Part shown: piece by piece, positions 484 through 62,104 of the stretch
How positions within the stretch are numbered: the first letter of the stretch is position 1
How the letters are laid out: every line of letters starts with the position of its first letter
Assembly: GCF_900109545.1 (NCBI RefSeq)
Contig: NZ_FOAP01000017.1
Location: 1-64,000, forward strand
Reading direction: 5' to 3'
DNA length: 64,000 nucleotides
Origin: Stigmatella aurantiaca
GTDB taxonomy: Bacteria > Myxococcota > Myxococcia > Myxococcales > Myxococcaceae
The notes under the pieces: generated by a model
Seen by the model: only the letters and a program-made list of their open reading frames with translations
Databases searched by the model: none
Told to the model about the DNA's origin: nothing
Made by a program: the position numbers and the translations under genes

Positions 484-3400
484 ATGCCTAACTCCCCCCG
501 ATCAACCCCCGCCGGCGGTCGCGCGACTGAAGCTGGCATGTCGTTCCAGGCTGGTGTCGGACTGTGGTTCGCAGCTTACATCGTAAGTGATATGCCAATC
601 GGTCGGCGGTTCGGGCTTTCAGATGCAGCACGTCCGGTCGAGCTTCAGTTCGAAACGGGTATAGGCCTCGACGACATACTCCTGAAGTTGTCTGACGGCA
701 ACGCCATCTTCGTCCAATGCAAGACGCGACCATCTCTCACCACCGATGCCACCTCGGAACTCGGGATGACACTGCGGCAGCTTGTCCGATTACTGCTCGC
801 TCTGAGATCAGGCCTGAGCCGTGGAACGTGGACAGTCCGGGAGCCGACGCAGTGCGCTGCCGTTCTCGCTGTGGCCGCAGATGCTCCACGTTCCCTCGAC
901 AACCTTCACTTGGCCTGCCGCGCCTTTGATGCCGGGGGTGACTGGCCGACAATCTTAGCTCAACTCAGCGAGCAGCGACGATCGGCGATGCAGTTGTTCG
1001 AACAGCACGCTCGGTCGGCTTGGCAGACGGAGACAGGAGCAACTGCTACAGGCGCGGATCTGATCGACTTGGCTCGCCTCTTCCGGATTGAACGCTTTGA
1101 CATTGATCCTGGTGCGGCTGACTGGCGCGAGGCTTCTCGCGTGCTTGGCTCAAGGCTATTCGGGCAAGAGGATGCTGGCGACGCGCCGCTTTCGAGCCTA
1201 CTCGGCACTGTCCGAGACTTGGTTCGAAGGGGGATACCCGCCGATCAGAGCGGCCTCTTGCGCGCTCTGCGCGCTGCTGGCCACGATGACTCTCGGGCTC
1301 CTCGATACGAGGGGGACATCGCCCGCCTAAGGGAGAGCACTAACCGCGAGTTGCAGCGGCTCGATCGACACCGACGCCTAGAGATTGGAGGCGGCGTCCT
1401 CATCGAGCGCGAGTGTCTCTTACCACTCGACGCGGCGGTGCGAGATGGCAGCATCCTCATATGCGGCGAACCTGGGGCGGGGAAAACTGGAATCCTCGTG
1501 GCCTTGGCGCGCAATTGGATGCGCGATGATGCTCCTGTCATCTTCCTCTCTGTTGATCGATTGTCCGGGATAGCAACGCGCCACGACCTCCAATCTGAAT
1601 TCAGGTTGGAGAAGGATTTACTTGAGGTTCTCGCGCACTGGCCCGGACGAAATGCGGGCCTGCTCGTCATCGATGCCCTTGATGCATCGCGTGGAGGCTT
1701 GTCAGAGGCCCTATTCTCCTCGCTCATCGAAGAGGCGGTGGCGCGCCTTGGTGAGCGATGGTCAGTTGTGGCGTCGATCCGGACCTTTGACCTCAAGAGT
1801 GGCCGTAGATTCCGCGAGGCTATGCGCGGCACCCCTCCTGACCGGACATATGCCGAGGCAGGCCTTGCTCAAGTCCGGCACTTCAAAGTGCCTCGCCTTA
1901 CTGTAAGTGAACTAACTACTGTCGCACGGGAGAATGACGAACTCGGTGCGCTGTTGGGAAATGCGCCACGGGCACTCATCGATCTTCTCGGAAATCTTTT
2001 TAGCCTTTCGATTGCTGTCAACCTCATCGCGGGCGGTATTTCTGCAGCGAGTATCCGGAGCATAACCACTCAGTCGGACTTGCTTGAACGTTATGAGGAC
2101 GAGCGCCTACCGAACAGACGCATGCTCGCTGCAGTGACAAGCACTATTGCTGCCATGGTCGAGCGGCGTCGACTAACAGTGCGTTGGCTGGACGTACAGC
2201 ATGAGGCTATCGATGAGGTTCTCGCGTCAGGGGTCCTAGTGAAAGCCGGCGATAGGCTTGAATTTGCCCATCACGTCCTCTTTGATCACGTGACCGGTCG
2301 GTACTTTCTGGAATGGGATGATCCCGAGCGCCTTCAGGCTCGCGTTACGGCCGCACCTGCCATCGGTTTCATTCTTGGCCCGTCATTACGCTTTGCCATG
2401 GAACGCATGTGGCGCGATGACGAGCACGGCCGACCTCGGTCGTGGCGTTTTATTGCTGGCCTTGCAGGAGTCGACAACCTTGATCCAGTGGTTGCAAGCG
2501 TCGCGCTACGCACAGTTGCTGACCGCGTGGAGCGCACGGCAGATATTGAAGCTCTCGCCGCACTTCTCGAAGACCCTCAGGCCAACCATGCAACCTTGGG
2601 AACAATGCTGTCGCGGCTCGCTCGCTTCTTCGGCATGAGCTTCGCTGGGGGGAATACGGACCATGCCAGTGCTGCGATCGCTTGGGCCACTCTTGCCCAA
2701 CGTACGATTAGAACTGGCAAGAAAGAATTCACTGATGGCGCGAACTTCCTGCTCTGGACACTGTTCCAACGCGGGGATTTTAGCAACAGTGGCTTCACGC
2801 ATGCCTTCGGCGGCGCAGCTCGCGACCTCCTTGCTTTTGCTTGGGGGGTAGATCCACCGATGCCAAATTTGGCAACGAATGCGATTCGTTTCGTCGCTAG
2901 ATCTTTCTCTGCCGATCCAACGGCCTCCGCTCACCTCCTTAAGCAAATAATAGAGGAACCTCGCTTCTCACAGCATGCGCACGAGGAGGCCACTTGGCTC
3001 GCGGAGGGTATTCAGTACATCGCGCCTATCGATTCTACCTTTGCAGTTCGGATCTATGTCACGCTCTTTAGCCGGCCTGCTCCGCAAGACGGGACAACCT
3101 TGATGGGGGGTGTGGTAAGCCGCCTCCTGCCGCTCACCTCGACCCGCAAGCAGGACTATGAGCATGCTCGGTGGCATCTGACACGAGCGCTCCCGCGATT
3201 TCTTGCCGCAGCCCCTGGTCCTGCGACTAGGGCGCTAATTGGTGCAGCGAACGGACTCGCCGAGCAGGAGTCTTACCGCGCCAATCAGCTTGAGCGTGTT
3301 ACGGCACAGGCAGGTATGCGGGAGGTTACCATCCTATATGATCCATTCTCGCCTGGAGGCTGGCGGCAGCGTGGGGATCCCGCGAATGAACTTCTTGCCG

Positions 3401-5427
3401 CCTTTGAAGAATTCCTCCGAAACTGCACACCCGAAGCATTTCGTGATGCGGTAGGAGCCGTTCTCGAATGCCCAACCAACACGGCAGTATGGGCGCATAT
3501 CTTCGACAGTGCAGCGGACCGCATCGGTGTCGCCGACGCTCTCCTCTGGCCTATCGTTACGACCCCGGCGCTCGTCAGCATCGCCGCTATTGCCCACAGT
3601 GCTATCAACTACTTGGCGGCCCTCTACCCATCAGCAACCGAGAGCGAGCGGCGCACGTTTGAGACGGTCGCGCTAACAGCGGACCTTTTTACAGGGGAGA
3701 ATGAGCGCAACTCGTGGCGCAGATTCCTGGGACGTTTCCTATCTGTAGTATCATCCGACGTGCTCACAACCGAGTCGATGAGAACGTTGAGAGCGGAATT
3801 AGAGCGCGCAGGAGAACTCACCGGCAACCGGCCCTCGCCTTCCTTCGAAATGCGATATGGCGGCTCAGATAACATTGCCGAGGAGTTACTTGCACACAGC
3901 GGCGTTGATCTCGGCCGTTCGCCAGACCGAGAGATATTCGCGGCCAGCCAGACCCTGGACAAGGTGCTGGCAGCATCGACCAAAGAGCCGGACGACTCCG
4001 AGATTCAGGCTATCTGGTCTGCCGTTGAAACAGTGATCGCAGTTATTGATGCTTCCGTTGATCCGTCTCCTCACAAAGAGACTTTACGCGCGAGCTGGGG
4101 GACGATCAGCAATGCGCTCGAGCGCATTGTTCAGAGTGATCATTTCGACCCTGCTGCGCCTAGCCAACCAGATCTCGACGCCGTTCTCGACCTTGCCTCG
4201 CGACTTGCTACTAGTCCTTACCCCGAGTTGCGCGACGAGCGTGACAGCGACATGGCATGGGGCAACTGGGATGTTCGTGTCTACGCAGCATCAAGTTTCA
4301 TGGCGCTCGCACCGCGGTTCGCGTCGCAACGCCCGCCCATCCTTGAAGCCTTGAACAACTTCCTAGGGGATCCGAGCGCAACTGTCCGACTCCAAGTTGC
4401 CCGGAGCATCAATGTCCTTTGGGATGTTGCGCGAGAGCCGATGTGGGCCATGGTGGCTCGCATTGCCAACGAGGAAGCCAACCTTGGTGTGCTCGGCTCC
4501 TACGTTGCTGGGCCGCTCACTCGGCTCGCAGGAGCAGATCCGACCCGTTGCGAGGACATGCTCGCCTCCGTGCTGCGACGCGTGACACCCCAGGCAACCG
4601 AGGATAGCGGCAGGCGACGCGAGACTCTCGACAACGCAGTCGGCCATTTGATTGCATGGCTATATGTCGCCCGTGGTCGTGAGCGCGTCCGAGCTTGGAT
4701 CTCCGATTGGATGGCCAACCTCGTGATAGGCGAGCGCTATCTCCTGCCAATGCTTTCATCGCTCCGGGAAGTCTTCTTCTTCCGCTACGGCCCCGACTCA
4801 ACGCCCGATGAAAATGCGCTTTTTCAAAGGGCGAAAGACATCCTGGGAACTGTGGTCGCTACTGCAGTCGAGGTCATCGAAGCGGCTAGGCGCGAGTTGC
4901 AGCGCTCTGACCTTGCTGAAGCTGATAAGGCAGCCCATGAAAAGCGTTACCTCGCAGGCGATCGTCTCCTTGAACAGGCGTGTAGCCAGCTCTACTTCGG
5001 TTCCGGAGCATTTAGGTCAGGGAACCGAGGCGAGGATAAGCCCGGCTTAACGGGCAGTGACGCTATGCGTCTCTTCTTAGGTGATTTTGGACTGGCACTA
5101 AAACGAATCGGTCAGGCAGGAACACCCCGCACGCTTCATCACCTTGTTGAACTGTACGCCTATCTCTCCGATGCCTCTCCCGGAGAGGTGTTCGACCGGC
5201 TCGCCGACATCTTAGCCGGTCCGGCCATCCGGGAGGGCTACCATTTCGAGAGTATCGCATCTGACGTGCTCGTCAATCTCGTGCGGCGAAACCTCGCGGA
5301 TCATCGCGCCATCTTCGAAGATACAACTCGCCGCAGTCGCCTGGTGGAGGTTCTCGAGGTCTTCTCGCGTGCGGGTTGGCCTGAAGCTATGAAGCTCCTC
5401 TACGAACTGCCGGATCTCCTGCGATGA
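484..5427 (+). CDS. Nuclease-STAND NTPase, Avs-like defence protein
   Basis: A 1647-aa protein in three parts. The N-terminus (about 20-110) looks like a Cap4/DUF4297-type PD-(D/E)xK dsDNA nuclease: acidic residues E53/E57, D63-D64, then Q78-C79-K80. A P-loop NTPase follows, with Walker A GEPGAGKT at 328-335, Walker B LLVID at 393-397, a further acidic residue D400 and an arginine-bearing sensor-like ASIRTFDL. The remaining roughly 1100 residues are helical and repeat-like with no motif I recognise. This order (effector nuclease, STAND ATPase, long helical sensor) is that of Avs-type antiphage sensors, which recognise phage proteins and then activate the effector. That function is inferred. 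The next gene's ATG overlaps this stop codon by 4 bp, so the two are probably translationally coupled. Base use is visibly less GC-rich than the core genes after 11 kb, pointing to acquisition. An internal ATG at 538 is an alternative start. Confidence 0.72.
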   Translation: MPNSPRSTPAGGRATEAGMSFQAGVGLWFAAYIVSDMPIGRRFGLSDAARPVELQFETGIGLDDILLKLSDGNAIFVQCKTRPSLTTDATSELGMTLRQLVRLLLALRSGLSRGTWTVREPTQCAAVLAVAADAPRSLDNLHLACRAFDAGGDWPTILAQLSEQRRSAMQLFEQHARSAWQTETGATATGADLIDLARLFRIERFDIDPGAADWREASRVLGSRLFGQEDAGDAPLSSLLGTVRDLVRRGIPADQSGLLRALRAAGHDDSRAPRYEGDIARLRESTNRELQRLDRHRRLEIGGGVLIERECLLPLDAAVRDGSILICGEPGAGKTGILVALARNWMRDDAPVIFLSVDRLSGIATRHDLQSEFRLEKDLLEVLAHWPGRNAGLLVIDALDASRGGLSEALFSSLIEEAVARLGERWSVVASIRTFDLKSGRRFREAMRGTPPDRTYAEAGLAQVRHFKVPRLTVSELTTVARENDELGALLGNAPRALIDLLGNLFSLSIAVNLIAGGISAASIRSITTQSDLLERYEDERLPNRRMLAAVTSTIAAMVERRRLTVRWLDVQHEAIDEVLASGVLVKAGDRLEFAHHVLFDHVTGRYFLEWDDPERLQARVTAAPAIGFILGPSLRFAMERMWRDDEHGRPRSWRFIAGLAGVDNLDPVVASVALRTVADRVERTADIEALAALLEDPQANHATLGTMLSRLARFFGMSFAGGNTDHASAAIAWATLAQRTIRTGKKEFTDGANFLLWTLFQRGDFSNSGFTHAFGGAARDLLAFAWGVDPPMPNLATNAIRFVARSFSADPTASAHLLKQIIEEPRFSQHAHEEATWLAEGIQYIAPIDSTFAVRIYVTLFSRPAPQDGTTLMGGVVSRLLPLTSTRKQDYEHARWHLTRALPRFLAAAPGPATRALIGAANGLAEQESYRANQLERVTAQAGMREVTILYDPFSPGGWRQRGDPANELLAAFEEFLRNCTPEAFRDAVGAVLECPTNTAVWAHIFDSAADRIGVADALLWPIVTTPALVSIAAIAHSAINYLAALYPSATESERRTFETVALTADLFTGENERNSWRRFLGRFLSVVSSDVLTTESMRTLRAELERAGELTGNRPSPSFEMRYGGSDNIAEELLAHSGVDLGRSPDREIFAASQTLDKVLAASTKEPDDSEIQAIWSAVETVIAVIDASVDPSPHKETLRASWGTISNALERIVQSDHFDPAAPSQPDLDAVLDLASRLATSPYPELRDERDSDMAWGNWDVRVYAASSFMALAPRFASQRPPILEALNNFLGDPSATVRLQVARSINVLWDVAREPMWAMVARIANEEANLGVLGSYVAGPLTRLAGADPTRCEDMLASVLRRVTPQATEDSGRRRETLDNAVGHLIAWLYVARGRERVRAWISDWMANLVIGERYLLPMLSSLREVFFFRYGPDSTPDENALFQRAKDILGTVVATAVEVIEAARRELQRSDLAEADKAAHEKRYLAGDRLLEQACSQLYFGSGAFRSGNRGEDKPGLTGSDAMRLFLGDFGLALKRIGQAGTPRTLHHLVELYAYLSDASPGEVFDRLADILAGPAIREGYHFESIASDVLVNLVRRNLADHRAIFEDTTRRSRLVEVLEVFSRAGWPEAMKLLYELPDLLR

Positions 5428-6947
5428 GCAACCTGAGCGAAAGGGAAGAGTTTCGGCGCCGTCTCGGCAATATTATTAAACTGTTTGGGCAGCGCGAAGA
5501 ACTCATCCGTAGCCAATATAACGCGGCGAGAGAAGCTGGAACAGTGCCGGACAGCGATGCTCCGGCGGACCTGCTGGAGCGTCCCACTCGGCGCTTCCTA
5601 ATCGACGGCTTCTTGCGTGAATTGGGATGGGATCCCGACGACCCAGCTCGTCTAAGCGAAGAGGCGCGCAGCACGGCAGCTAGTGGCGACCGACTTTATT
5701 TCGACTACTTGGGCATCGTGCCGCAGACGATGTTTCCAGTGCTTCTGGTTGAGGCCAAAGCCTTCGACACCGCTCCGGCACGTCGGCCGCGCGGCGCCGA
5801 ACTCGACGCTAGCGGGATGGTCGATCTTCTCGTCTCAGCAATCGGAGCGCTTAAACAAGGTACCGAGGCATTGCCAGTCACCGCAGAATGGGCGCAATGG
5901 CTTAAGGACCTGCGAACCTACGTAACCTCACTAAATGAGCACGCTCGGTCGACGCTTAGGCGCGTCGTGATCACCGCTGGCCGATGGATCATTGCGTTCC
6001 AAGAGCCGCTAGCGGCGTTCACCGATGCAGGGACTGTTAGTAGAGAGCACATCCACTGCTTCACGAGCCTTGATAACATCCTGCTCCGGTGCGACGAACT
6101 GTTCGATCTCCTCGCTCGAGATCGCCTCGTCAACACTCTACCACTCACGCTCGATCTGGGCCAAGCCCTCCAGATGATAGAGCCTAGCTCGATCTCCGCT
6201 TTCTATCGGGGTGTTGTGGTCGTGACGACGACCAGTGGCGCAAGGCGCAAGCCATATCCAACACGATCGGTCTATCCCGCAGTTATTGTCTTGTCCGGGG
6301 CTCAAGTGTTCGGAATAGTCGACTACGAATCCCCACCCGAAGAACCGCCTGTCGCCACGGCTTTTTCGGCTTTTCTATCCGCTCTCGAAGCTCGTCGTGC
6401 AAAGCTTGAAGAACGGATCGCTGCGCGCTTCGGCCTGCCCCGTCTCGAACCGTCACCAATCGAAGCCTTCCCCGGATTCGCTCCGATGCGCTTGCGCCCA
6501 CATGCAGTCCGTACTCTTGTCTCAGCAGTCACAGGATCAACCGCTGAGATCCTCAGAAGTGATCTGGGAGAACCGACGCGCCACCTTGTCGTGCCGACGG
6601 GCGAGAGAACGGACGGGGTACCTGAATACCTCGTCGTCACGGGTCGAAGCTCATTTTACAAAGCCATTAGCCCACAGGGTCCAGAGTGTCCATTCCACTT
6701 TTGGAAGGGTGCTCGTGGTATCGACGCGAGCAGGTCTGGACCGCACTTGCTGCGAGGCAGCAAGTCATTCACCGAAGATGGAGAGCCCCGTCACTGTGCG
6801 CATGACGACCTTCGCGACTTGCGCCAACGAAGGTGCCACATGGCAGTCCTTGAAACGCACATGTGCTGTCGCGTCTGCGTCTTCTATTCAAACTGCTGGG
6901 AGTCTGATGGTAACCGACTTCCCTGCCCTGGTATCACTGTGCCATGA
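5424..6947 (+). CDS. HsdR-N-like nuclease, Cys/His-rich tail
   Basis: A 507-aa protein translationally coupled to the large NTPase by an ATGA overlap. Residues about 50-115 match the N-terminal nuclease fold of type I restriction R subunits: a helix like RRFLIDGFLRELGWD, acidic E79/E80, D94 in FDYLGI and E110-A-K112 in the ExK position. The helicase motor of a true HsdR is absent. The last 50 residues are rich in Cys and His (HCAH, RRCH, HMCCRVC, SNC), suggesting a metal-binding finger. The middle part is not recognised. Coupling to a STAND NTPase that has its own nuclease domain suggests a second effector or partner subunit in one defence system; this is inference. Codon use is lower-GC, like its neighbours. 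Confidence 0.65.
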   Translation: MSNLSEREEFRRRLGNIIKLFGQREELIRSQYNAAREAGTVPDSDAPADLLERPTRRFLIDGFLRELGWDPDDPARLSEEARSTAASGDRLYFDYLGIVPQTMFPVLLVEAKAFDTAPARRPRGAELDASGMVDLLVSAIGALKQGTEALPVTAEWAQWLKDLRTYVTSLNEHARSTLRRVVITAGRWIIAFQEPLAAFTDAGTVSREHIHCFTSLDNILLRCDELFDLLARDRLVNTLPLTLDLGQALQMIEPSSISAFYRGVVVVTTTSGARRKPYPTRSVYPAVIVLSGAQVFGIVDYESPPEEPPVATAFSAFLSALEARRAKLEERIAARFGLPRLEPSPIEAFPGFAPMRLRPHAVRTLVSAVTGSTAEILRSDLGEPTRHLVVPTGERTDGVPEYLVVTGRSSFYKAISPQGPECPFHFWKGARGIDASRSGPHLLRGSKSFTEDGEPRHCAHDDLRDLRQRRCHMAVLETHMCCRVCVFYSNCWESDGNRLPCPGITVP

Positions 6948-53802: not shown

Positions 53803-55236
53803 ATGCGCGCGTCGTGGCGATCCACCCTGCTGACGGTGATGTTGGGTTCGGTCTTGGCGGAGGGCGCCGCGTTCGCGGAGCAAGCCGCGGAGCCGCTCCC
53901 GGTGGAGGCAGGGCCCCAGCGCTGGACGGAGGCGCTGTCCACGGGCGAGGGCGCGGGGGACATCGTGCGCACACGGGACGGGCTCTTGTACGAGCCCTTC
54001 GCCGTGATGCGCAGGTCCGAAGGGCTGAACCGGCTGACGGGCCTCTACACGTTCCCAGCGCGCAGCCTGGAGCGGACCGTGGACACGGTCCGGCCGGGCG
54101 TTCAGGCGGCGATGACACAGGGGATGGGCGTGGAGGTGGACGTGCGCGTGCGCGCTCCGGGGGGCGCCTGGAGCGAGTGGCGCACGGCGAACCCGGGGGA
54201 GGCCGTGCGGCTGCCCCGGGCCGGCACGGAGGTGCAGGTCCGGCTGGCGCTCCTGGCGGATGAGCACGGCCGGGGGCCCTTGGTGCAGGGGGTGGAGCTG
54301 GAAGGGTGGCACGAGGGGCACGGCGCCGGAGAGGACTTCCAGACGCTGGCGCCGCTGACCTACCGCATCTTCGCCACCCGCGAGGGGCTGGTGGGCGGCA
54401 CGACGGCCAACGGCCACATCATCAAGAGCAACGACCGCTTCGTGGCGCTGCCGTCCCGCCGGGGGCTCGCCTCCAACGGGGGCTCCGAGTACCAGGTGCG
54501 CGTGTGCTACGCGAAGACGTCGAAGTGCGCGACGGCCTCCGTGTGGGACGTGGGGCCCTGGAACACGAAGGATGACTACTGGAATCCGTCCAGCGTGCGC
54601 GAGTCGTGGAAGTCCTTGCCACAGGGCAAGCCGGAGGCGCAGGCCGCGTACCAGGACGGCTTCAACGGCGGGTTGGATCAATTCGGGCGCCGGCCATCGA
54701 ACCCCGCGGGCATCGACATCGCGGACGGGACGTTCTGGATCGACCTGGGGATGACGAACAACGACTGGGTGGACGTGACGTACCTGTGGACCTCGGGCGG
54801 GGGCACGCCCGCGGGGCTGGTCATCGACAGCAACAACGCGAACAACGACCAGACGAAGGGCTACATCCAGCTCACGGGCTCGAGCTGGGCCTCCTCCACG
54901 AACGTGACGGGCTACTACGGCAGCAGCTACCTGGTGTCCCCCGGCGCGGCGGTGTCGGAGCCGGCGACGTTCTGGTTCTACCTGCCGGCGGCGGGCACGA
55001 AGACGGTGGATGCGTGGTGGACGGCGGCGTCGGACCGCTCGGCGGCGGCGCCCTTCATCATCCTGAGCGCGACGGGCGCGCAGCTGGCGAACGTGAAGGT
55101 GAACCAGCAAGTCAATGGCGCCCGGTGGAACACGCTCGGCACGTGGAGCTTCCCGGCGGGCTGGAACAAGGTCCAGCTGAGCCGCTGGGTGACCGCGGGC
55201 ACCTACGTCGTCGCGGACGCCATCCAGGTCCGGTAG
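53803..55236 (+). CDS. Secreted golvesin-C-like domain protein
   Basis: A 477-aa secreted protein with signal peptide ending AAFAEQ. An N-terminal beta region (about 30-180) precedes a central part (VGGTTANGHIIKSNDRFVALPSR, QVRVCYAKTSKCATASVWDVGPWN, GIDIADGTFW). This resembles the core found in bacterial golvesin-type secreted proteins. The C-terminal domain (about 365-477, NVTGYYGSSYLVSPG ... WVTAGTYVVADAIQVR) is golvesin-C/xanthan-lyase CBM-like and probably binds carbohydrate. AGGAG 7 nt upstream of ATG 53803 lies in the right arm of a long hairpin, so translation may be controlled. Confidence 0.75.
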   Translation: MRASWRSTLLTVMLGSVLAEGAAFAEQAAEPLPVEAGPQRWTEALSTGEGAGDIVRTRDGLLYEPFAVMRRSEGLNRLTGLYTFPARSLERTVDTVRPGVQAAMTQGMGVEVDVRVRAPGGAWSEWRTANPGEAVRLPRAGTEVQVRLALLADEHGRGPLVQGVELEGWHEGHGAGEDFQTLAPLTYRIFATREGLVGGTTANGHIIKSNDRFVALPSRRGLASNGGSEYQVRVCYAKTSKCATASVWDVGPWNTKDDYWNPSSVRESWKSLPQGKPEAQAAYQDGFNGGLDQFGRRPSNPAGIDIADGTFWIDLGMTNNDWVDVTYLWTSGGGTPAGLVIDSNNANNDQTKGYIQLTGSSWASSTNVTGYYGSSYLVSPGAAVSEPATFWFYLPAAGTKTVDAWWTAASDRSAAAPFIILSATGAQLANVKVNQQVNGARWNTLGTWSFPAGWNKVQLSRWVTAGTYVVADAIQVR

Positions 55237-55389: not shown

Positions 55390-56394
55390 TTAAGGGGCGT
55401 AGGCGATGTTCCACTGGGCGTAGGCCTCCTTGTTGGGATCCGTGGCGTGCACGGTGACGGTGTTGGCCTGAGAGGCGCCCGGCGAGCAGTTGTTGCAGCG
55501 GGCCGCGTACTTGCCGGTGTCGGACTCGAGGGCCCACTTGCCGTTGTTGAGCAGCACGGGCTTGAACTGGGCATAGGCCGCGGCCGGGTCATCCACGTGG
55601 ACGGCCAGGGTGTCGGGCTGCTTGGAGCCCACGATGCAGCCATTGCAGCGGGCCACGTACTTGCCGTTGTCCGACTTGAGGGCGATCTTCCCGCCGCCCA
55701 TCTCCCTCACCTCGAACTGGTCATAGGTCTCCGTGGGAGCCTTGACGTGGACGGTGACGGTGTCGGGGAACTTGTTGTTCACGGTCTTCTGGCAGCCATT
55801 ACAGCGCGCGAAGTACAGGCCCGTGTCCGCCTGGAGGGAGATCTTCTGGCCCTTGGGGAAGAGGGGCGTGATGGCCCACTGCGCGTAGGCCTCCTTGTTG
55901 GGATCCGTGGCGTGCACGGTGACGGTGTTGGGAGTCGAGGCGCCCGGCGAGCAGCCATTGCAGCGGGCCAGGTACTTGCCGGTGTCCGCCTTGAGCGCGT
56001 ACTTGCCGTTGCTCAGCCGCTCGATCGAGAACTGGGCGTAAGCCTGGGACGCGCTGTCCGCGTGCACCGTCACGAAGTCCGGCTTGGCGCCACCCACGAT
56101 GCAGCCATTGCAGCGGGCCACGAACTTGCCGTTGTCCGACTTCAACGCCACCTTCCCATTGCCCACGAGCACCAGCTCGAACTGGGAGTAGGCCCCGGTG
56201 GCATCCTTGGCGTGGGTGGTGACGGTGTCGGGGATCTTGTTGTCCACGGTCTTCTGGCAGCCATTGCAGCGCGAGAAGTAGGTCCCCTCATCCGACTGCA
56301 GCGTGATCTTCAGCCCCGCGGCCTCGCTGGCCCCCGGAAGCAACACGCACATCGTCACCAGGCTCAATGCCCACTTCGTCAGTCCTGCGGTCAT
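55390..56394 (-). CDS. Secreted double beta-trefoil protein with CxxC repeats
   Basis: A 334-aa secreted protein (signal peptide ending GASEAAG). It consists of six repeats of about 50 aa, each with SDxGKYxARCNGC, then TVxVHAxD and AYAQF. CxxC pairs lie at 43/46, 95/98, 145/148, 198/201, 250/253 and 300/303. Loop types after CxxC alternate Q-K-T-V, I-V-G, S-P-G, then the same three again, so the protein is a duplicated three-repeat unit, that is two beta-trefoils of fascin-like type. AAGGAG six nt upstream fixes ATG 56394. The same CxxC trefoil occurs in the cytochrome gene at 60101-62104. Binding partner (glycan or protein) and metal/disulfide role of CxxC are unknown. Confidence 0.8.
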   Translation of the reverse strand: MTAGLTKWALSLVTMCVLLPGASEAAGLKITLQSDEGTYFSRCNGCQKTVDNKIPDTVTTHAKDATGAYSQFELVLVGNGKVALKSDNGKFVARCNGCIVGGAKPDFVTVHADSASQAYAQFSIERLSNGKYALKADTGKYLARCNGCSPGASTPNTVTVHATDPNKEAYAQWAITPLFPKGQKISLQADTGLYFARCNGCQKTVNNKFPDTVTVHVKAPTETYDQFEVREMGGGKIALKSDNGKYVARCNGCIVGSKQPDTLAVHVDDPAAAYAQFKPVLLNNGKWALESDTGKYAARCNNCSPGASQANTVTVHATDPNKEAYAQWNIAYAP

Positions 56395-56539
56395 GACTTC
56401 TCCTTGCCGGTATGGAAGGTCTCCGCCGGGGACATGCCCCCCAGACGGGCCGATGACCACCTGTGCAAAAGCCATGACAGCGGGAAGGGCCGGGGCTTCC
56501 CTCCTGCGGGAACAAACGCCCGTGACAACCGGCCTTGGG

Positions 56540-56567
56540 TGACACGTCAAGCGCCTGGGCTGACACG
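56540..56567. promoter_or_regulatory. Direct-repeat motif A, TGACACGTCAA-N10-TGACACG
   Basis: TGACACGTCAA at 56540-56550 and TGACACG at 56561-56567, 21 bp from start to start (two helix turns). The region separates the trefoil gene (minus, ATG 56394) from the LodB-like gene (plus, ATG 56639). A matching motif with identical spacing lies at 62212-62239. No other copy with the second half at this spacing was noticed in the window. Confidence 0.55.
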
Positions 56568-56638
56568 TTGTTCGCGTCGGCGGGCGTGAAGTCCCCGGAG
56601 GCCCCCGCTGGGTATGCGCGTTGCACGGGAGGGCGCGG

Positions 56639-57796
56639 ATGACGACCGGCCCTCTCTCCAGTTCCGCGGACGCCCCGTCCGCTCCCGTGGTGCGAAGCCC
56701 ACAGGCCTCCTATGCCGTGGTGGTGGTGGGAGGCGGTGTGGCGGGCTTGAGCGCCGCGCTGACCCTGGTCCGGGCAGGCGTGTCCGTCTGTGTGCTGGAG
56801 CGCACCGATTATTCCACCTGGCGCCCCGGGGAGACGCTCTCCCCGGCGGCGTATTCCGAGCTGCGGCAACTGCTGGCGCCCGCGCCCCTGGAGACGGAGG
56901 GTTTCCTGGCCTCCCACGGCCTGGAGGCCACCTGGGGGTCGGAACAGCCGCACCACCACTCCTTTCTCACCAATCCCTACGGCAGCGGCTGGCATGTGGA
57001 GCGCCGGCACCTGGACGCGCTGTTGGCCCGGCATGCCCAGGCGCACCAGGTGCCCCTGTGGCAAGGCACCTGTCTCACCCACCTGGCGCGGGAGGGGACG
57101 GGGTGGCGGCTCCAGGTCAACACCCCTCAGGGGCCGTGCGAGGTGCGCTGCGAGGCGTTGGTGGATGCGACGGGGCGCTCGGCGCAGGTGGCGCGCCACT
57201 GTGGGGTGCGGCGCCTGAGCTGGGATGCGCTGTGCAGCGTGTCGGCCATCGTGGACCGGCCCCTGGCCCTCCAGGAGCAATCCCTGGTGGTGGAGGCCAC
57301 GCGCTGGGGCTGGTGGTACGCCGCGCCGCTGCCCCAGGGCCGCTTCATCCTCACCCTGATGAGCGACGTGGATGTGCTGGAGCGCCAGGGCTGCTGGAAG
57401 CCGGAGGGGTGGAGCGCGCTCTTCTCGGCCACCCAGCACCTGGCCCCCCGGGTGGGCGCCCTGCCCGAAGTGAAGCGGCTGTACGTCCGCCGCTGCGAGA
57501 CAAGCTGCCTGGAGCGCGCGGCGGGGGAGAACTGGGCCGCCGTGGGGGACGCCGCGGCGATGTGGGATCCACTCTCGTCGAGCGGCATCCTCAAGGGCCT
57601 GCGCACCGGGCGCGAGGCCGCGCAGGCCCTGTGTGCCGCGCTGGGGGGAGACGGAGCGGCGCTGAAGCACTACGCCCAGCAGCGGGACGCGGAGTTCTTC
57701 CGCTACCTCTCCGCGCGCCGGGCCCATTATGCCCAGGAGCAGCGCTGGGCCCGGGAAGACTTCTGGCGCCGCCGGCTGAGCGCTGCCTTGGAGTAA
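56639..57796 (+). CDS. LodB-like FAD oxidoreductase (quinone cofactor maturation)
   Basis: A 385-aa flavoprotein. N-terminal Rossmann motif VVVVGGGVAGLSAALTL, then VCVLERTDYSTWRPGETLSP as in halogenase/geranylgeranyl-reductase-like monooxygenases, and GDAAAMWDPLSSSGILKGL for FAD binding. Such proteins (LodB, GoxB) are required to build the cysteine-tryptophylquinone cofactor of LodA/GoxA oxidases. The LodA-like gene is its convergent neighbour, 37 bp away, which makes this role likely. ATG 56639 has GGGAGGG 5 nt upstream. Alone it could equally be a halogenase-like hydroxylase. Confidence 0.78.
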   Translation: MTTGPLSSSADAPSAPVVRSPQASYAVVVVGGGVAGLSAALTLVRAGVSVCVLERTDYSTWRPGETLSPAAYSELRQLLAPAPLETEGFLASHGLEATWGSEQPHHHSFLTNPYGSGWHVERRHLDALLARHAQAHQVPLWQGTCLTHLAREGTGWRLQVNTPQGPCEVRCEALVDATGRSAQVARHCGVRRLSWDALCSVSAIVDRPLALQEQSLVVEATRWGWWYAAPLPQGRFILTLMSDVDVLERQGCWKPEGWSALFSATQHLAPRVGALPEVKRLYVRRCETSCLERAAGENWAAVGDAAAMWDPLSSSGILKGLRTGREAAQALCAALGGDGAALKHYAQQRDAEFFRYLSARRAHYAQEQRWAREDFWRRRLSAALE

Positions 57797-57833
57797 GGAG
57801 CGCTCAGCCGAGGGCGGACAGCCTGTCCCGGTT

Positions 57834-60083
57834 CTAGGCCGGGCGGGACTCCAGGATCTCGGCCTGCCAGAGGTTGCCGATGCCCTCGCCCCAGGTCGTC
57901 ACGCCGGAGGCCGAGTCGGGCCGGTGCAGGCAGTCGCCCCTGGAGGACTTCAGGACGACCTGGCCGTTGAGCAGCTCGAGGATCCACTCACTGGCGGCCC
58001 CCACGGCGCCGGTGGTGACCCCTTGGGGGGTCTCGGCCCGCAGCAGGTAGTCGCCCTTCCACGACTTCAGCCGGAGCTTGTTCTCGCTCACCCACTCGAC
58101 GGCCCACTCCGTGCCCTTGCCCTCGCCCAGCGTGGTGACTCCCGAGGCCGCGTCGGGCCGGTGCAGGTAGTCGGTCTTCCATGACTTCAGCTTGATCTTC
58201 GTCGCGTAGCGCAGGTTCGAGCCCGGGGTGGGCGGAGGGCTGCGCTCCTGGGTCTCGAAGTGCAGCTCGCCCTCGCTGATGACGAAGCCGAGCTGGGGCC
58301 AGTTCTTCTGCATCTGGATGTACATGGTCAGGTCGATGGCGGGCACGTCCTCGGTCGCGAGGCTCTGGAACTCCGGCTTCTTCGCCTCGGCCTCGGCCAC
58401 CGCGTCCAGCGCGCGCGTCCAGGGCACGAGCTGGAAGTCTCCCTTCTTCGCGTAGACGTCATCCGGCCGGTGAGCGGACCACCACATGTGGTACATGCCC
58501 TCGCCCTCGTAGGCGTGTCCCTTGGGCGGGAAGAGCTGCTTCTTGCACTGGTAGAAGTCCGCCTGCCAGGGCAGCGCCATCTGCTGGGAGAAGAACCCCG
58601 GGCCGATGGGGAGCTTGGCCGTGCCAGGGAAGGCCACCCCCGAGTGCTTCACCCGGAAGGGCGCCGCGTACAGCTCGGGCCGCCGCACCATCCAGCTGCA
58701 GTCGATGCCGGGGAAGAAGGGGCCGCCCACGCAGTTCTCCAGCGCGGCCCGGTCCAAGCCCTCGGCGGTGATGGCCGGATCAATCGCCCGGGCCGCCGCC
58801 TCGTTCCAGTCCTCCTCGAACGCCCCCTCGGACCACCGCTTGAGCAGCGCGTACTGCACGTGCGTGAGGGTCATGAAGTAACCCGGCCGGGGCCCTTCCG
58901 TGTCCGAGTAGTTGTCGCCCAGCCCCTTGGGCATCAGCAAGGGCTCGACGGTGGTGCTGGACGGGTCGCGCAGGTAATTGAAGATGGTCTTGCGCAGGCG
59001 CTTGCCCTTGGAGGAGCTCAGCGAGCCCAGATCCCCTTCCGCGCCCGCGAAGCTTCCATGGAACGCCTTGGAGGCCTCGGGGTTGTGGACCTGCCGGTGC
59101 TGCAGGGCGCGGTCCAGAATGGGGAAGATCTCCTGCCGGAAGGAGGGCAGGTACGTCTTGAAGGACTTGGACGCCTCATCCCAGTCCTTGCGCTGCTTGG
59201 CGAGCCGGGAGAACAGGCCCTGGGAGAAGAGGCCGTCGGTGTCGAACAGCGGCACCTCGGGGAAGCGCACCGCCACATCCCACAGCGTGTCGATGAGGCG
59301 GATGACGTTGCTCGCCGAGGGCGCGAAGTCCGGCGGGCCCACCAGCAGCCAGGCCCCGGTGGCCCCCTCCAGCACCGCCTTCTGGGTCTTCCCGGCCTCG
59401 GTATAGGTGACTTCGGCGCTCACGGGGCCGTCCGACATGTCATCGAACCAGAAGTCGTTGTTCACGTAGTTGTCGATGAGCTTGCCTTGGGGAAGCTTCT
59501 CGGCGCGTCCCAGGCCGCCCAGCACGAGCAGGTTTCCGTTCTCGTCCGTGCGCAGCTCGCCCAGCGTGGGGATGGGAATGTGGCTCTTGGTGTGGGTGAG
59601 GGGCACGGGGGGCTGGCTGCGGCCCGAGACCGTCTTGGGCCCCGGATCGATGACGAGCTGGCGCTCGCGCTCGGCGGCACCCTGGACATGGGCGTTGCGC
59701 AGGTTGACCCGCGGCTTGCCCTCCTCGGGCTCCGCGCCCTTCCAGACGCCGTCCACGCCGTCCTGGCCATCGAAGGTGAAGAAGGCCGCCTTGCGGTTGG
59801 CCAGGTGGACCTTCCACTGGATGCTGACAACGCCGCTGGTGCCCGCGGTCACCTCGCGCACGGGGACGATCGCGCCGCCCTTCTGCTCGTACTCGAAGAT
59901 GCGGAAGCGGGCCGCCTGCCGCTTGATGCGGCCCTGGCTGTCCTTGAACGGCCGGAACTTCTTCTGGGCAAGGTCGAAGTTGGGGGGCTCCCCGGGGTGC
60001 TCGGGGCCCATGAAGAACTCATCGGGGGAATTGCCCACGCGGGCAACGCCCACGGCGGGGTGGATTCTGAAGAACTTGGGCAT
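57834..60083 (-). CDS. LodA-like CTQ amine/amino-acid oxidase with beta-trefoil
   Basis: A 749-aa protein. It starts FFRIHPAVGVARVGNSPDEFF and continues with GPEHPGEPPNF, the typical LodA/GoxA N-terminus. The cofactor region has Cys451 in ENCVGGPFFPGID and Trp506 in ALPWQADFYQC, the positions expected to form cysteine tryptophylquinone. LodA-type enzymes oxidise the epsilon-amine of lysine (LodA) or glycine (GoxA) and release hydrogen peroxide. The C-terminal 125 residues are an extra domain: three repeats of LKSWKxDYLxRxDxxxGVTT, a fascin-like beta-trefoil. No classic signal peptide, as in known LodA. It starts 17 bp after the cytochrome gene's stop in the same operon. The substrate is unknown. 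Confidence 0.85.
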   Translation of the reverse strand: MPKFFRIHPAVGVARVGNSPDEFFMGPEHPGEPPNFDLAQKKFRPFKDSQGRIKRQAARFRIFEYEQKGGAIVPVREVTAGTSGVVSIQWKVHLANRKAAFFTFDGQDGVDGVWKGAEPEEGKPRVNLRNAHVQGAAERERQLVIDPGPKTVSGRSQPPVPLTHTKSHIPIPTLGELRTDENGNLLVLGGLGRAEKLPQGKLIDNYVNNDFWFDDMSDGPVSAEVTYTEAGKTQKAVLEGATGAWLLVGPPDFAPSASNVIRLIDTLWDVAVRFPEVPLFDTDGLFSQGLFSRLAKQRKDWDEASKSFKTYLPSFRQEIFPILDRALQHRQVHNPEASKAFHGSFAGAEGDLGSLSSSKGKRLRKTIFNYLRDPSSTTVEPLLMPKGLGDNYSDTEGPRPGYFMTLTHVQYALLKRWSEGAFEEDWNEAAARAIDPAITAEGLDRAALENCVGGPFFPGIDCSWMVRRPELYAAPFRVKHSGVAFPGTAKLPIGPGFFSQQMALPWQADFYQCKKQLFPPKGHAYEGEGMYHMWWSAHRPDDVYAKKGDFQLVPWTRALDAVAEAEAKKPEFQSLATEDVPAIDLTMYIQMQKNWPQLGFVISEGELHFETQERSPPPTPGSNLRYATKIKLKSWKTDYLHRPDAASGVTTLGEGKGTEWAVEWVSENKLRLKSWKGDYLLRAETPQGVTTGAVGAASEWILELLNGQVVLKSSRGDCLHRPDSASGVTTWGEGIGNLWQAEILESRPA

Positions 60084-60100
60084 GACACGTCTCTCAGTGG

Positions 60101-62104
60101 TTAGTGGGTCTGGTCGTAAAGCTTTTCAACGAGCTCCAGCAGGCGCTGCTTGTCCTTGGCCGGCATCTCCCGGTCCGCGGGCATCCGGAAGCCGAGGATC
60201 TTCTGCTGCGTGGGATTGGGGGCCACGCGGTCGAGGATGGGGCTGCTCTGATCCGCGACCATGTCCTTGCTGTAGAGGTCGAAGCGGATGGCGCCGTGGC
60301 AGCGGTAGCAATACTTGTTCATCAGCCCCAGCAGCTCCCGGTCCTCGGCGTTGGTGGTCCAGTTCAGGGGGCCAGTGGTGGGCTTGCGGTCCTTCTTGAG
60401 CGGGTGGCCGGTGTTGAAGAAGGAGATGGAGCGCTTGACGAGGTCCGGCTCCGGCGCGGCCGACGTCTTGTGCAGCTCCAGCCACTTCTGGGTGGCGGTC
60501 AGGTGGAAGGCGCCCGGGTTCGTCCGCTGCTGCGTGGTGGCGATCTCCTGGTTCAGCCGGCGCAGGATGTTGAAGGCCGCCACGTACTGCGGGCTCTTCG
60601 GATCCTTGCCCGCGTCGAAGAGCGGTGCGGGGGCATCGGGCTTGGCCAGGGCGGGGAAGTCTCCGTCCGTGAGCCGGTCCATCCAGTGGTCCGTGTCCAG
60701 GTGGTTGAGCACGGCATTGCCACGCAGCGCGCCATGGCAGGTGTCACACCCGTTGGGGACGAAGTAGGGGGCCTGGCCGTTGCCGGGCAGGGCGCCCGCA
60801 TCGAAGAAGGCGTCGAGCTGGTAGGAGAGCTTGGAGCCATTCTCCGTGGCGCCGAAGTCCAGCCAGTAGATGCTGTTGAGCGTCAGCTCCTTGCAGGTGG
60901 GGTTGGAGGCCGGGCAATGGGTGACGAGCGCCACCTGCGTGTTGACGGAGCCGTTCTTCTTCGAGGCCGGCACGGTGACCGTCACGTCTCCCCAGGGGGA
61001 GGGCTTCACCTCCTGGGTGGGGGTGAGGCTGCCGCCAAAGGGGCTGTGGGTGGGCGGCTTCGTGAAGTGGTTGAAGAGGATCCACGCGCTCTCCACGAAG
61101 TGCTTCTGTGCCTCGGAGCCGGGGCGGGCGTTGATGCGCACCAGCCGGCGCCAGCCAATCTCCCGCTGCTCGGGCGCCACGGCGTAGTTGACGATCTTCG
61201 GTGCGAAGAAGCGGGAGACGAGAAGCTCCCCGGGGCGCAGGGCGGGGGCGGGGACAGGGGCGGGGGTGCGCGTGACGACGGTCCACTGGGCGGTGACATC
61301 GGTCTGCGGTTGGGTGGCGTTGACCGTGACCGTGTCGGGCACGGTGGTGTCGGAGGAGCACTGCCGGCACCGGTTCAGGTACTTGCCCGTGTCGGCCTTG
61401 AGGGCGAGCTTGCCGTTGGGCAGCCGCTCCGGGGTGAACCGGGCAAAAGCGGCGGAGGGGTCCGTCGCATGGACCGTGGCGAAGTCCGGGACGCGGCCCC
61501 CGATGATGCAGTTGTTGCACCGGGCCACGAACTTGCCCGTGTCCGCCTTGAGGGCGATCTGCCCGTTGCCGGCGTCCACCACCTCGAACTGGCCGTAGGG
61601 CGCGGTGTCCGCGTTGTTGATGTGGGTGGTGATGCTATCCGGGGCGCCATTGTTCACGCTGCGCTGGCAATTGTTGCAGCGGGCGAAGAAGAAGCCGGTA
61701 TCCGCCAGGAGCGACACCTTGCTCCCGGGAGCCAGGGGCAGCGGGGCGGTGACGGGCTTCTGCACAGGAGCCGCCATCAACGCCTCGGGCGTGGCGAACT
61801 CAAGCTCGTCGGGGGTGAGGGCGGGATACCCGAGATAGTTCAGGAGCACCTTCACGGTGGCCTGCGTCTCGATGGTTGCCGGTGTGAGGAAACCCAGCTT
61901 CCCGGCGAGCTCCTTGTAGTACTTGGAGGCCTCCTCCGGGCTGCCGTTGTTGAGGGCGCTCGGCTTGGGGGCTGGCGCGGCGGGTGGGGTGGGGGCTGGG
62001 CTCTGGGCGAAACCTGGCTGGGCTTGCAGCACCGCCAGCAAGGCGCCGAAAGCGAGAAAGGGCGTTCGACGGGGACGTAACGGTGAGGATGGGAAGGGTT
62101 TCAT
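60101..62104 (-). CDS. Secreted c-type cytochrome with CxxC beta-trefoil
   Basis: A 667-aa exported protein (signal peptide ending GFAQ, residues 31-34). After a Pro-rich linker, residues about 125-275 form one beta-trefoil of three CxxC repeats (C143/C146, C196/C199, C246/C249), closely like the separate trefoil protein. The C-terminal part has two heme-attachment motifs, CDTCH (453-457) and CYRCH (599-603), with FRMP near 640 offering a methionine ligand. It probably accepts or carries electrons outside the inner membrane. Its operon partner, 17 bp downstream, is the LodA-like oxidase. A link between the two reactions is inferred. Start 62104 is chosen for the signal peptide. Confidence 0.78.
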   Translation of the reverse strand: MKPFPSSPLRPRRTPFLAFGALLAVLQAQPGFAQSPAPTPPAAPAPKPSALNNGSPEEASKYYKELAGKLGFLTPATIETQATVKVLLNYLGYPALTPDELEFATPEALMAAPVQKPVTAPLPLAPGSKVSLLADTGFFFARCNNCQRSVNNGAPDSITTHINNADTAPYGQFEVVDAGNGQIALKADTGKFVARCNNCIIGGRVPDFATVHATDPSAAFARFTPERLPNGKLALKADTGKYLNRCRQCSSDTTVPDTVTVNATQPQTDVTAQWTVVTRTPAPVPAPALRPGELLVSRFFAPKIVNYAVAPEQREIGWRRLVRINARPGSEAQKHFVESAWILFNHFTKPPTHSPFGGSLTPTQEVKPSPWGDVTVTVPASKKNGSVNTQVALVTHCPASNPTCKELTLNSIYWLDFGATENGSKLSYQLDAFFDAGALPGNGQAPYFVPNGCDTCHGALRGNAVLNHLDTDHWMDRLTDGDFPALAKPDAPAPLFDAGKDPKSPQYVAAFNILRRLNQEIATTQQRTNPGAFHLTATQKWLELHKTSAAPEPDLVKRSISFFNTGHPLKKDRKPTTGPLNWTTNAEDRELLGLMNKYCYRCHGAIRFDLYSKDMVADQSSPILDRVAPNPTQQKILGFRMPADREMPAKDKQRLLELVEKLYDQTH

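Follow-up and report, generated by a model that had tools for sequence, protein, structure and literature searches.

What a LodA-type quinoprotein does when it is encoded next to an exported c-type cytochrome is the question raised by a locus of Stigmatella aurantiaca, a soil bacterium from the predatory group of the myxobacteria. To our knowledge, every description of a LodA-type quinoprotein so far is of an oxidase, with the peroxide killing competitors or shaping biofilms. We analyzed a 64 kb stretch (hereafter, the window) of contig NZ_FOAP01000017.1, part of a 9.37 Mb genome in 61 contigs that contains a single LodA-like gene. Our results tip slightly in favor of a LodA-type cysteine tryptophylquinone (CTQ) dehydrogenase whose substrate-derived electrons go to its own c-type cytochrome, which is exported, with a LodB-like protein as maturase and trefoil domains as optional anchors. 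An initial annotation had outlined an extracellular redox system at this locus, consisting of a LodA-like oxidase, a LodB-like maturase, a secreted two-heme protein and a free double-trefoil protein. All four genes are real, while the cofactor residues named at that stage, the membership of the LodB-like gene in the operon and the standing of the free trefoil protein as a conserved component did not hold up. The core genes are the following:

60101-62104, minus strand: diheme c-type cytochrome of 667 amino acids (aa), with a signal peptide, an N-terminal domain, a CxxC trefoil and a two-CxxCH heme domain
60084-60100, minus strand: gap of 17 bp between the cytochrome stop codon and the LodA start codon, read from the sequence
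57834-60083, minus strand: LodA-like quinoprotein of 749 aa (PF17990, 6.4e-64; PF18417, 4.5e-33)
56639-57796, plus strand: LodB-like flavin adenine dinucleotide (FAD) monooxygenase, predicted quinone maturase (NF038171, 4.4e-74, under the equivalog cut-off)

On the minus strand, the secreted cytochrome is followed after 17 bp by the LodA-like protein, which makes the two a tight operon. The LodB-like gene adjoins the LodA-like gene on the plus strand, inverted and convergent with it. The single operon put forward earlier thus applies to cytochrome and LodA but not to LodB in the window, although in most relatives lodB lies directly after lodA on the same strand, the inversion being found in the window and in its nearest relative (G001).

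Both LodA Pfam domains of the 749-aa protein scored far above their gathering cut-offs (216 bits for PF17990, cut-off 26; 114 bits for PF18417, cut-off 25), and LodA crystal structures were matched with an E-value of 2.7e-48, in agreement with the family call made at first. The scores for the equivalogs of lysine 6-oxidase LodA (NF038172, 265 bits) and glycine oxidase GoxA (NF038173, 221 bits) lay under the respective cut-offs of 600 and 750 bits. The quinone residues were located by alignment:

58479-58559, minus strand: CTQ residues Cys513 (58545-58547) and Trp535 (58479-58481), together with Asp509 (58557-58559), from profile alignment to LodA

In phmmer and profile alignments with lysine 6-oxidase structures, Cys516 and Trp581 of LodA, the established quinone residues of that enzyme, corresponded to Cys513 (FYQC) and Trp535 (MWWSAHRP), and Asp512 of LodA to Asp509. 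When 59 LodA-like sequences were aligned, Asp509 and Cys513 were invariant, and Trp535 was present in all 56 that align at that position. The initial annotation had instead assigned the cofactor to Cys451 and Trp506. This pair was ruled out by the profile alignment to LodA and by conservation across the 59 sequences: 18 of the 21 clade members have Ser, Gly or Ala in place of Cys451, and Trp506 is conserved, yet it is not the quinone Trp. Since Asp, Cys and Trp are conserved, a quinone is expected at residues other than those first named, and, judged from the alignments, the cofactor machinery of the LodA-like protein is intact. Several clade-specific residues, F497, Q500, K515, M533 and H538 among them, lie near the quinone pair in the sequence.

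The match to NF038171 bore out the LodB-like identity of the putative maturase. Against the QhpG profile (NF049967), the same protein reached 166 bits, with a cut-off of 240, which places it in the same superfamily but not among the equivalogs. The LodA/LodB and GoxA/GoxB systems of Marinomonas and Pseudoalteromonas comprise the same quinoprotein and maturase families and share the quinone Cys and Trp as well as the nearby Asp. The proteins described here differ from LodA, GoxA, LodB and GoxB in scoring under the NCBIfam equivalog cut-offs, in the addition of a cytochrome and often of trefoils, and in the clade-specific residues close to the cofactor.

The third protein of the unit was correctly recognized at the outset as a secreted polypeptide with two CxxCH motifs and a CxxC trefoil, the latter containing three CxxC pairs. 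Signal peptides were judged by eye, without a predictor; that of the cytochrome is of the Sec type (KPFPSSPLRPRRTPFLAFGALLAVLQAQPGFAQ). Exactly two CxxCH motifs occur in the 667 aa, CDTCH at position 453 and CYRCH at position 599:

60734-60748, minus strand: heme site 1, CDTCH, residues 453-457, invariant in 16 aligned homologues
60296-60310, minus strand: heme site 2, CYRCH, residues 599-603, invariant in aligned homologues

Candidate distal ligands are the invariant His545 (60470-60472) for heme 1 and Met641, in a Met-Pro pair (Met at 60182-60184), for heme 2. The Met-Pro of the second site is kept by every homologue that is complete there, and 11 of 11 members gave a weak Cytochrome_CBB3 match around this heme. 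With its Met-Pro, the second heme site resembles a common c-type domain for electron transfer. For the first heme, the fold of cytochrome P460 or cytochrome c'-beta was considered. Cytochrome P460 matched the region before the first CxxCH weakly (VIA-align Z 2.3-2.5), among unrelated folds; this structural lead found no support in profile comparison, where HHalign aligned only the CxxCH.

These features bear on an explanation in which the LodA-like enzyme makes peroxide and the diheme protein acts as a peroxidase, either removing this peroxide or spending it on the oxidation of a substrate or the matrix. Diheme c-type peroxidases exist. Known LodA and GoxA enzymes do yield peroxide (PMC4417212, PMC3948610), and LodA fusions with catalase-like domains have been recorded (PMC4417212). 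However, among the Pfam matches of 11 cytochrome members up to an E-value of 5 there was no peroxidase or MauG family, remote homology being still possible, and the second heme appears to be of the electron-transfer type. We therefore regard a peroxide-handling cytochrome as unlikely.

The association of the LodA and cytochrome genes was followed in 98 relatives, 195 Myxococcota genomes, 96 genomes of the window's family and a named genome collection. In the 96 family genomes, all 18 full-length LodA genes of the clade adjoin a diheme cytochrome gene; the pair of genome G009 is split over two contig ends. The sole clade member seen without a cytochrome belongs to genome G491, and its LodA is not intact. 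The pair was also found at one Polyangium locus (L089), where LodB is not adjacent and a 35% homologue is located elsewhere, and at two Verrucomicrobia loci (L091 and L096), in the first of which LodB is cut by a contig end. A wider search of 338 Verrucomicrobiota genomes returned only the case already known. Cytochrome, LodA and LodB usually follow one another in this order on one strand. No fourth conserved gene was found around the operon, and the flanks share only common kinases. Retention of the unit despite differing flanks indicates that it is held together by selection and not by general synteny.

Orthologues of the cytochrome were detected at 18 loci in 16 Myxococcota genomes, in addition to those of Polyangium and Verrucomicrobia. 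For 20 loci, the distance matrices of LodA and cytochrome were correlated with r = 0.99, a value reached in 0 of 5000 permutations, as expected of a unit that travels together. Diheme relatives from the cytochrome's own family occur in Mesorhizobium, Roseibium and a planctomycete (L092, L093, L094 and L095), whose genomes yielded no LodA; they have LDTDQW where the LodA-linked cytochromes have LDTDHW. The suggestion that oxidase and cytochrome act together was thus strengthened where a lack of conserved linkage would have told against it, the linkage being kept across distant genomes with different flanks.

A second LodA clade is associated with a cytochrome of another kind. At 17 family loci that were checked directly, a protein of 1030-1130 aa with five CxxCH motifs is encoded straight after lodB; one more family locus with this association is broken by contig ends (G500), and a further case is one of 11 Pseudomonadota LodA loci (G877). 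The five-heme protein is unrelated to the diheme cytochrome and gave weak Pfam matches to cytochrome c7/c3 and MtrC-like heme domains. In the LodA tree, 21 diheme rows and 14 family five-heme rows were separate, each with support of 100/99, and unlinked genes fell between them; the LodA of G877 was placed elsewhere, on a long branch. As controls, the other 10 of the 11 Pseudomonadota loci and ten further myxobacterial LodA loci had no convincing c-type neighbor. Such multiheme proteins are more easily reconciled with electron transfer than with the making of peroxide, and a peroxide-handling role for the diheme protein leaves them unexplained. It is quite possible, though short of probable, that the LodA family turned at least twice independently, in the diheme and in the five-heme clade, from a peroxide-making oxidase to a cytochrome-coupled dehydrogenase. 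The result would be a second kind of quinohemoprotein, arrived at by convergence, with swappable trefoil anchors and maybe linking the oxidation of amines to extracellular electron transfer.

A frame of 969 aa with six CxxCH motifs was also observed in genome G009, downstream of a diheme-type LodA-LodB (locus L069, 4453-7359, plus strand). It is partly related to the five-heme protein and matches cytochrome P460 weakly.

The closest functional parallel is quinohemoprotein amine dehydrogenase (QHNDH; QhpA-G), which contains CTQ and a subunit with two hemes and is matured by a flavoprotein of the LodB/QhpG type (PMC7876137). As in QHNDH, the proteins of the window combine CTQ with an exported two-heme partner and a related flavoprotein, and the quinone protein has no classical signal peptide (PMC7876137). 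Unlike in QHNDH, the quinone resides in a LodA fold of 749 aa instead of a 9-kDa thioether-crosslinked gamma subunit (QhpC), and the cytochrome matches no family of the known diheme subunits. Because QHNDH unites the same three functions, the dehydrogenase reading is favored. LodA fusions or operons with catalase-like, ferritin-like, von Willebrand and tyrosinase/multicopper oxidase partners have been surveyed (PMC4417212); there, too, LodA recruits redox partners, but that survey mentions no cytochrome. In the open-licence papers searched, no LodA-cytochrome system was found, with multiheme cytochromes or otherwise, and nothing on a lysine epsilon oxidase in Myxococcus.

The parallel with QHNDH also admits a role for the diheme protein in maturation only, in which, like MauG, it would complete the quinone and take no part in turnover. 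MauG is a diheme protein that oxidizes the tryptophylquinone precursor of methylamine dehydrogenase, and the hemes of QHNDH have been proposed to perform the last oxidation step (PMC7876137). Nevertheless, nearly all of these operons already have a LodB, the enzymes of related LodA and GoxA operons mature with no cytochrome, LodA-like loci often lack one (in Pseudomonadota, 10 of 11), and no MauG family match was obtained. An exclusive maturation role is decidedly unlikely on these grounds.

The initial annotation had further proposed that trefoils anchor oxidase, cytochrome and free trefoil protein to a shared ligand, for a peroxide weapon against prey or for matrix cross-linking. The trefoils concerned are these:

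57837-58214, minus strand: C-terminal, CxxC-free beta-trefoil of the LodA-like protein (AlphaFold predicted local distance difference test score, pLDDT, 91.3)
61265-61735, minus strand: beta-trefoil inside the cytochrome, with three CxxC (RCNNC/RCNNC/RCRQC) and 50-60% identity to the free trefoil protein
55390-56394, minus strand: free secreted double-trefoil protein of 334 aa with six CxxC (Fascin and FRG1 Pfam matches above cut-off)

The trefoil at the LodA C-terminus, recognized from the start, was modeled with high confidence, and Foldseek related it to fascin, FRG1 and designed trefoils, with which it shares its fold (E-values of about 1e-6 to 1e-5, template modeling score of about 0.8). 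The double-trefoil protein was likewise present as described. Its gene starts about 245 bp from the start of the LodB-like gene, back to back with it, and one CxxC per repeat, regularly spaced in six pairs, was seen in the window and at L078 and L079. We found no matching description of CxxC-bearing trefoil repeats. As a class for the trefoil ligand, CBM92 was rejected. The free protein matched CBM92 structures weakly in sequence, and the three WExF motifs are absent from the LodA trefoil and from the CxxC trefoils. WExF sugar-binding motifs mark most CBM92 domains, one subgroup being without them (PMC11039641).

Trefoils recur on both partners. On LodA they are C-terminal in six genomes (the window's, G001, G004, G013, G033 and G048), N-terminal in Verrucomicrobium L096 and absent elsewhere. 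Most cytochromes carry one or two, usually of the CxxC type; in some relatives the cytochrome trefoil is absent or replaced by a CxxC-free one, and one or two copies of the LodA type occur in G003, G020, L086, L088 and G494. This repeated recruitment to either LodA or cytochrome is in line with a shared anchor. However, four intact operons (L068, L074, L089 and L091) keep the pair without a trefoil on either partner, and homologues of the free trefoil protein are present in G034 and G054, two genomes without LodA. The free protein was for this reason rejected as a core member and probably stands outside the system. Nothing specific points to a peroxide weapon or to cross-linking. Transfer of electrons to the cytochrome is likelier than either, and the anchored system as first proposed is very unlikely. 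The optional trefoils, on whichever partner, would suit joint action of LodA and cytochrome as a single particle, without proving it.

Several observations weigh against electron transfer from LodA to the cytochrome. Characterized LodA-family enzymes are O2-dependent, peroxide-making oxidases (PMC4417212, PMC3948610). The LodA-cytochrome pair is without a structure, and Foldseek found nothing that matched the cytochrome model (mean pLDDT 70) at an E-value of 0.001, the model being too uncertain for its fold to be called new. The weakest point is one of location: no N-terminal signal peptide could be recognized by eye on any cytochrome-linked LodA protein, that of the window included, while the cytochrome is exported, so that the partners may not meet. 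The related GoxA of Marinomonas carries a Tat signal (PMC3948610). The same observation would suit genes that are co-inherited and co-expressed for proteins that stay in separate compartments and exchange no electrons. Such a separation is highly improbable, given that the three-gene unit is kept in unrelated contexts and that trefoils swap between the partners.

Other genes of the window include an overlapping pair on the plus strand (484-5427 and 5424-6947) of lower guanine-cytosine content (about 58%), which match PADLOC PDC-M54A (1359 bits) and PDC-M54B (531 bits). They are a candidate anti-phage defense pair, and neither has a Pfam match. A secreted protein with a Golvesin_C domain (53803-55236, plus strand) is encoded adjoining the free trefoil gene.

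In the mechanism that we propose, the LodB-like protein would help to build the Cys513-Trp535 quinone, with which the LodA-like protein would oxidize a primary amine or an amino-acid group. The reduced quinone would give up its electrons not to O2 but to the exported cytochrome, whose two c-type hemes may relay them to the respiratory chain or to an outside acceptor; trefoils on either partner, as optional anchors, would tether the pair to a ligand on a surface or in the matrix. The substrate, the export of LodA, its complex with the cytochrome and the direction of electron flow are what we infer here from the conserved three-gene unit, its cofactor residues and its heme motifs. The repeated link to cytochromes suggests that much of the LodA family, at least in myxobacteria, consists of respiratory enzymes. 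If this is true, the layout of QHNDH would have been reached by convergence from unrelated catalytic parts, with implications for how a quinone enzyme comes to use either O2 or a protein as its electron acceptor.

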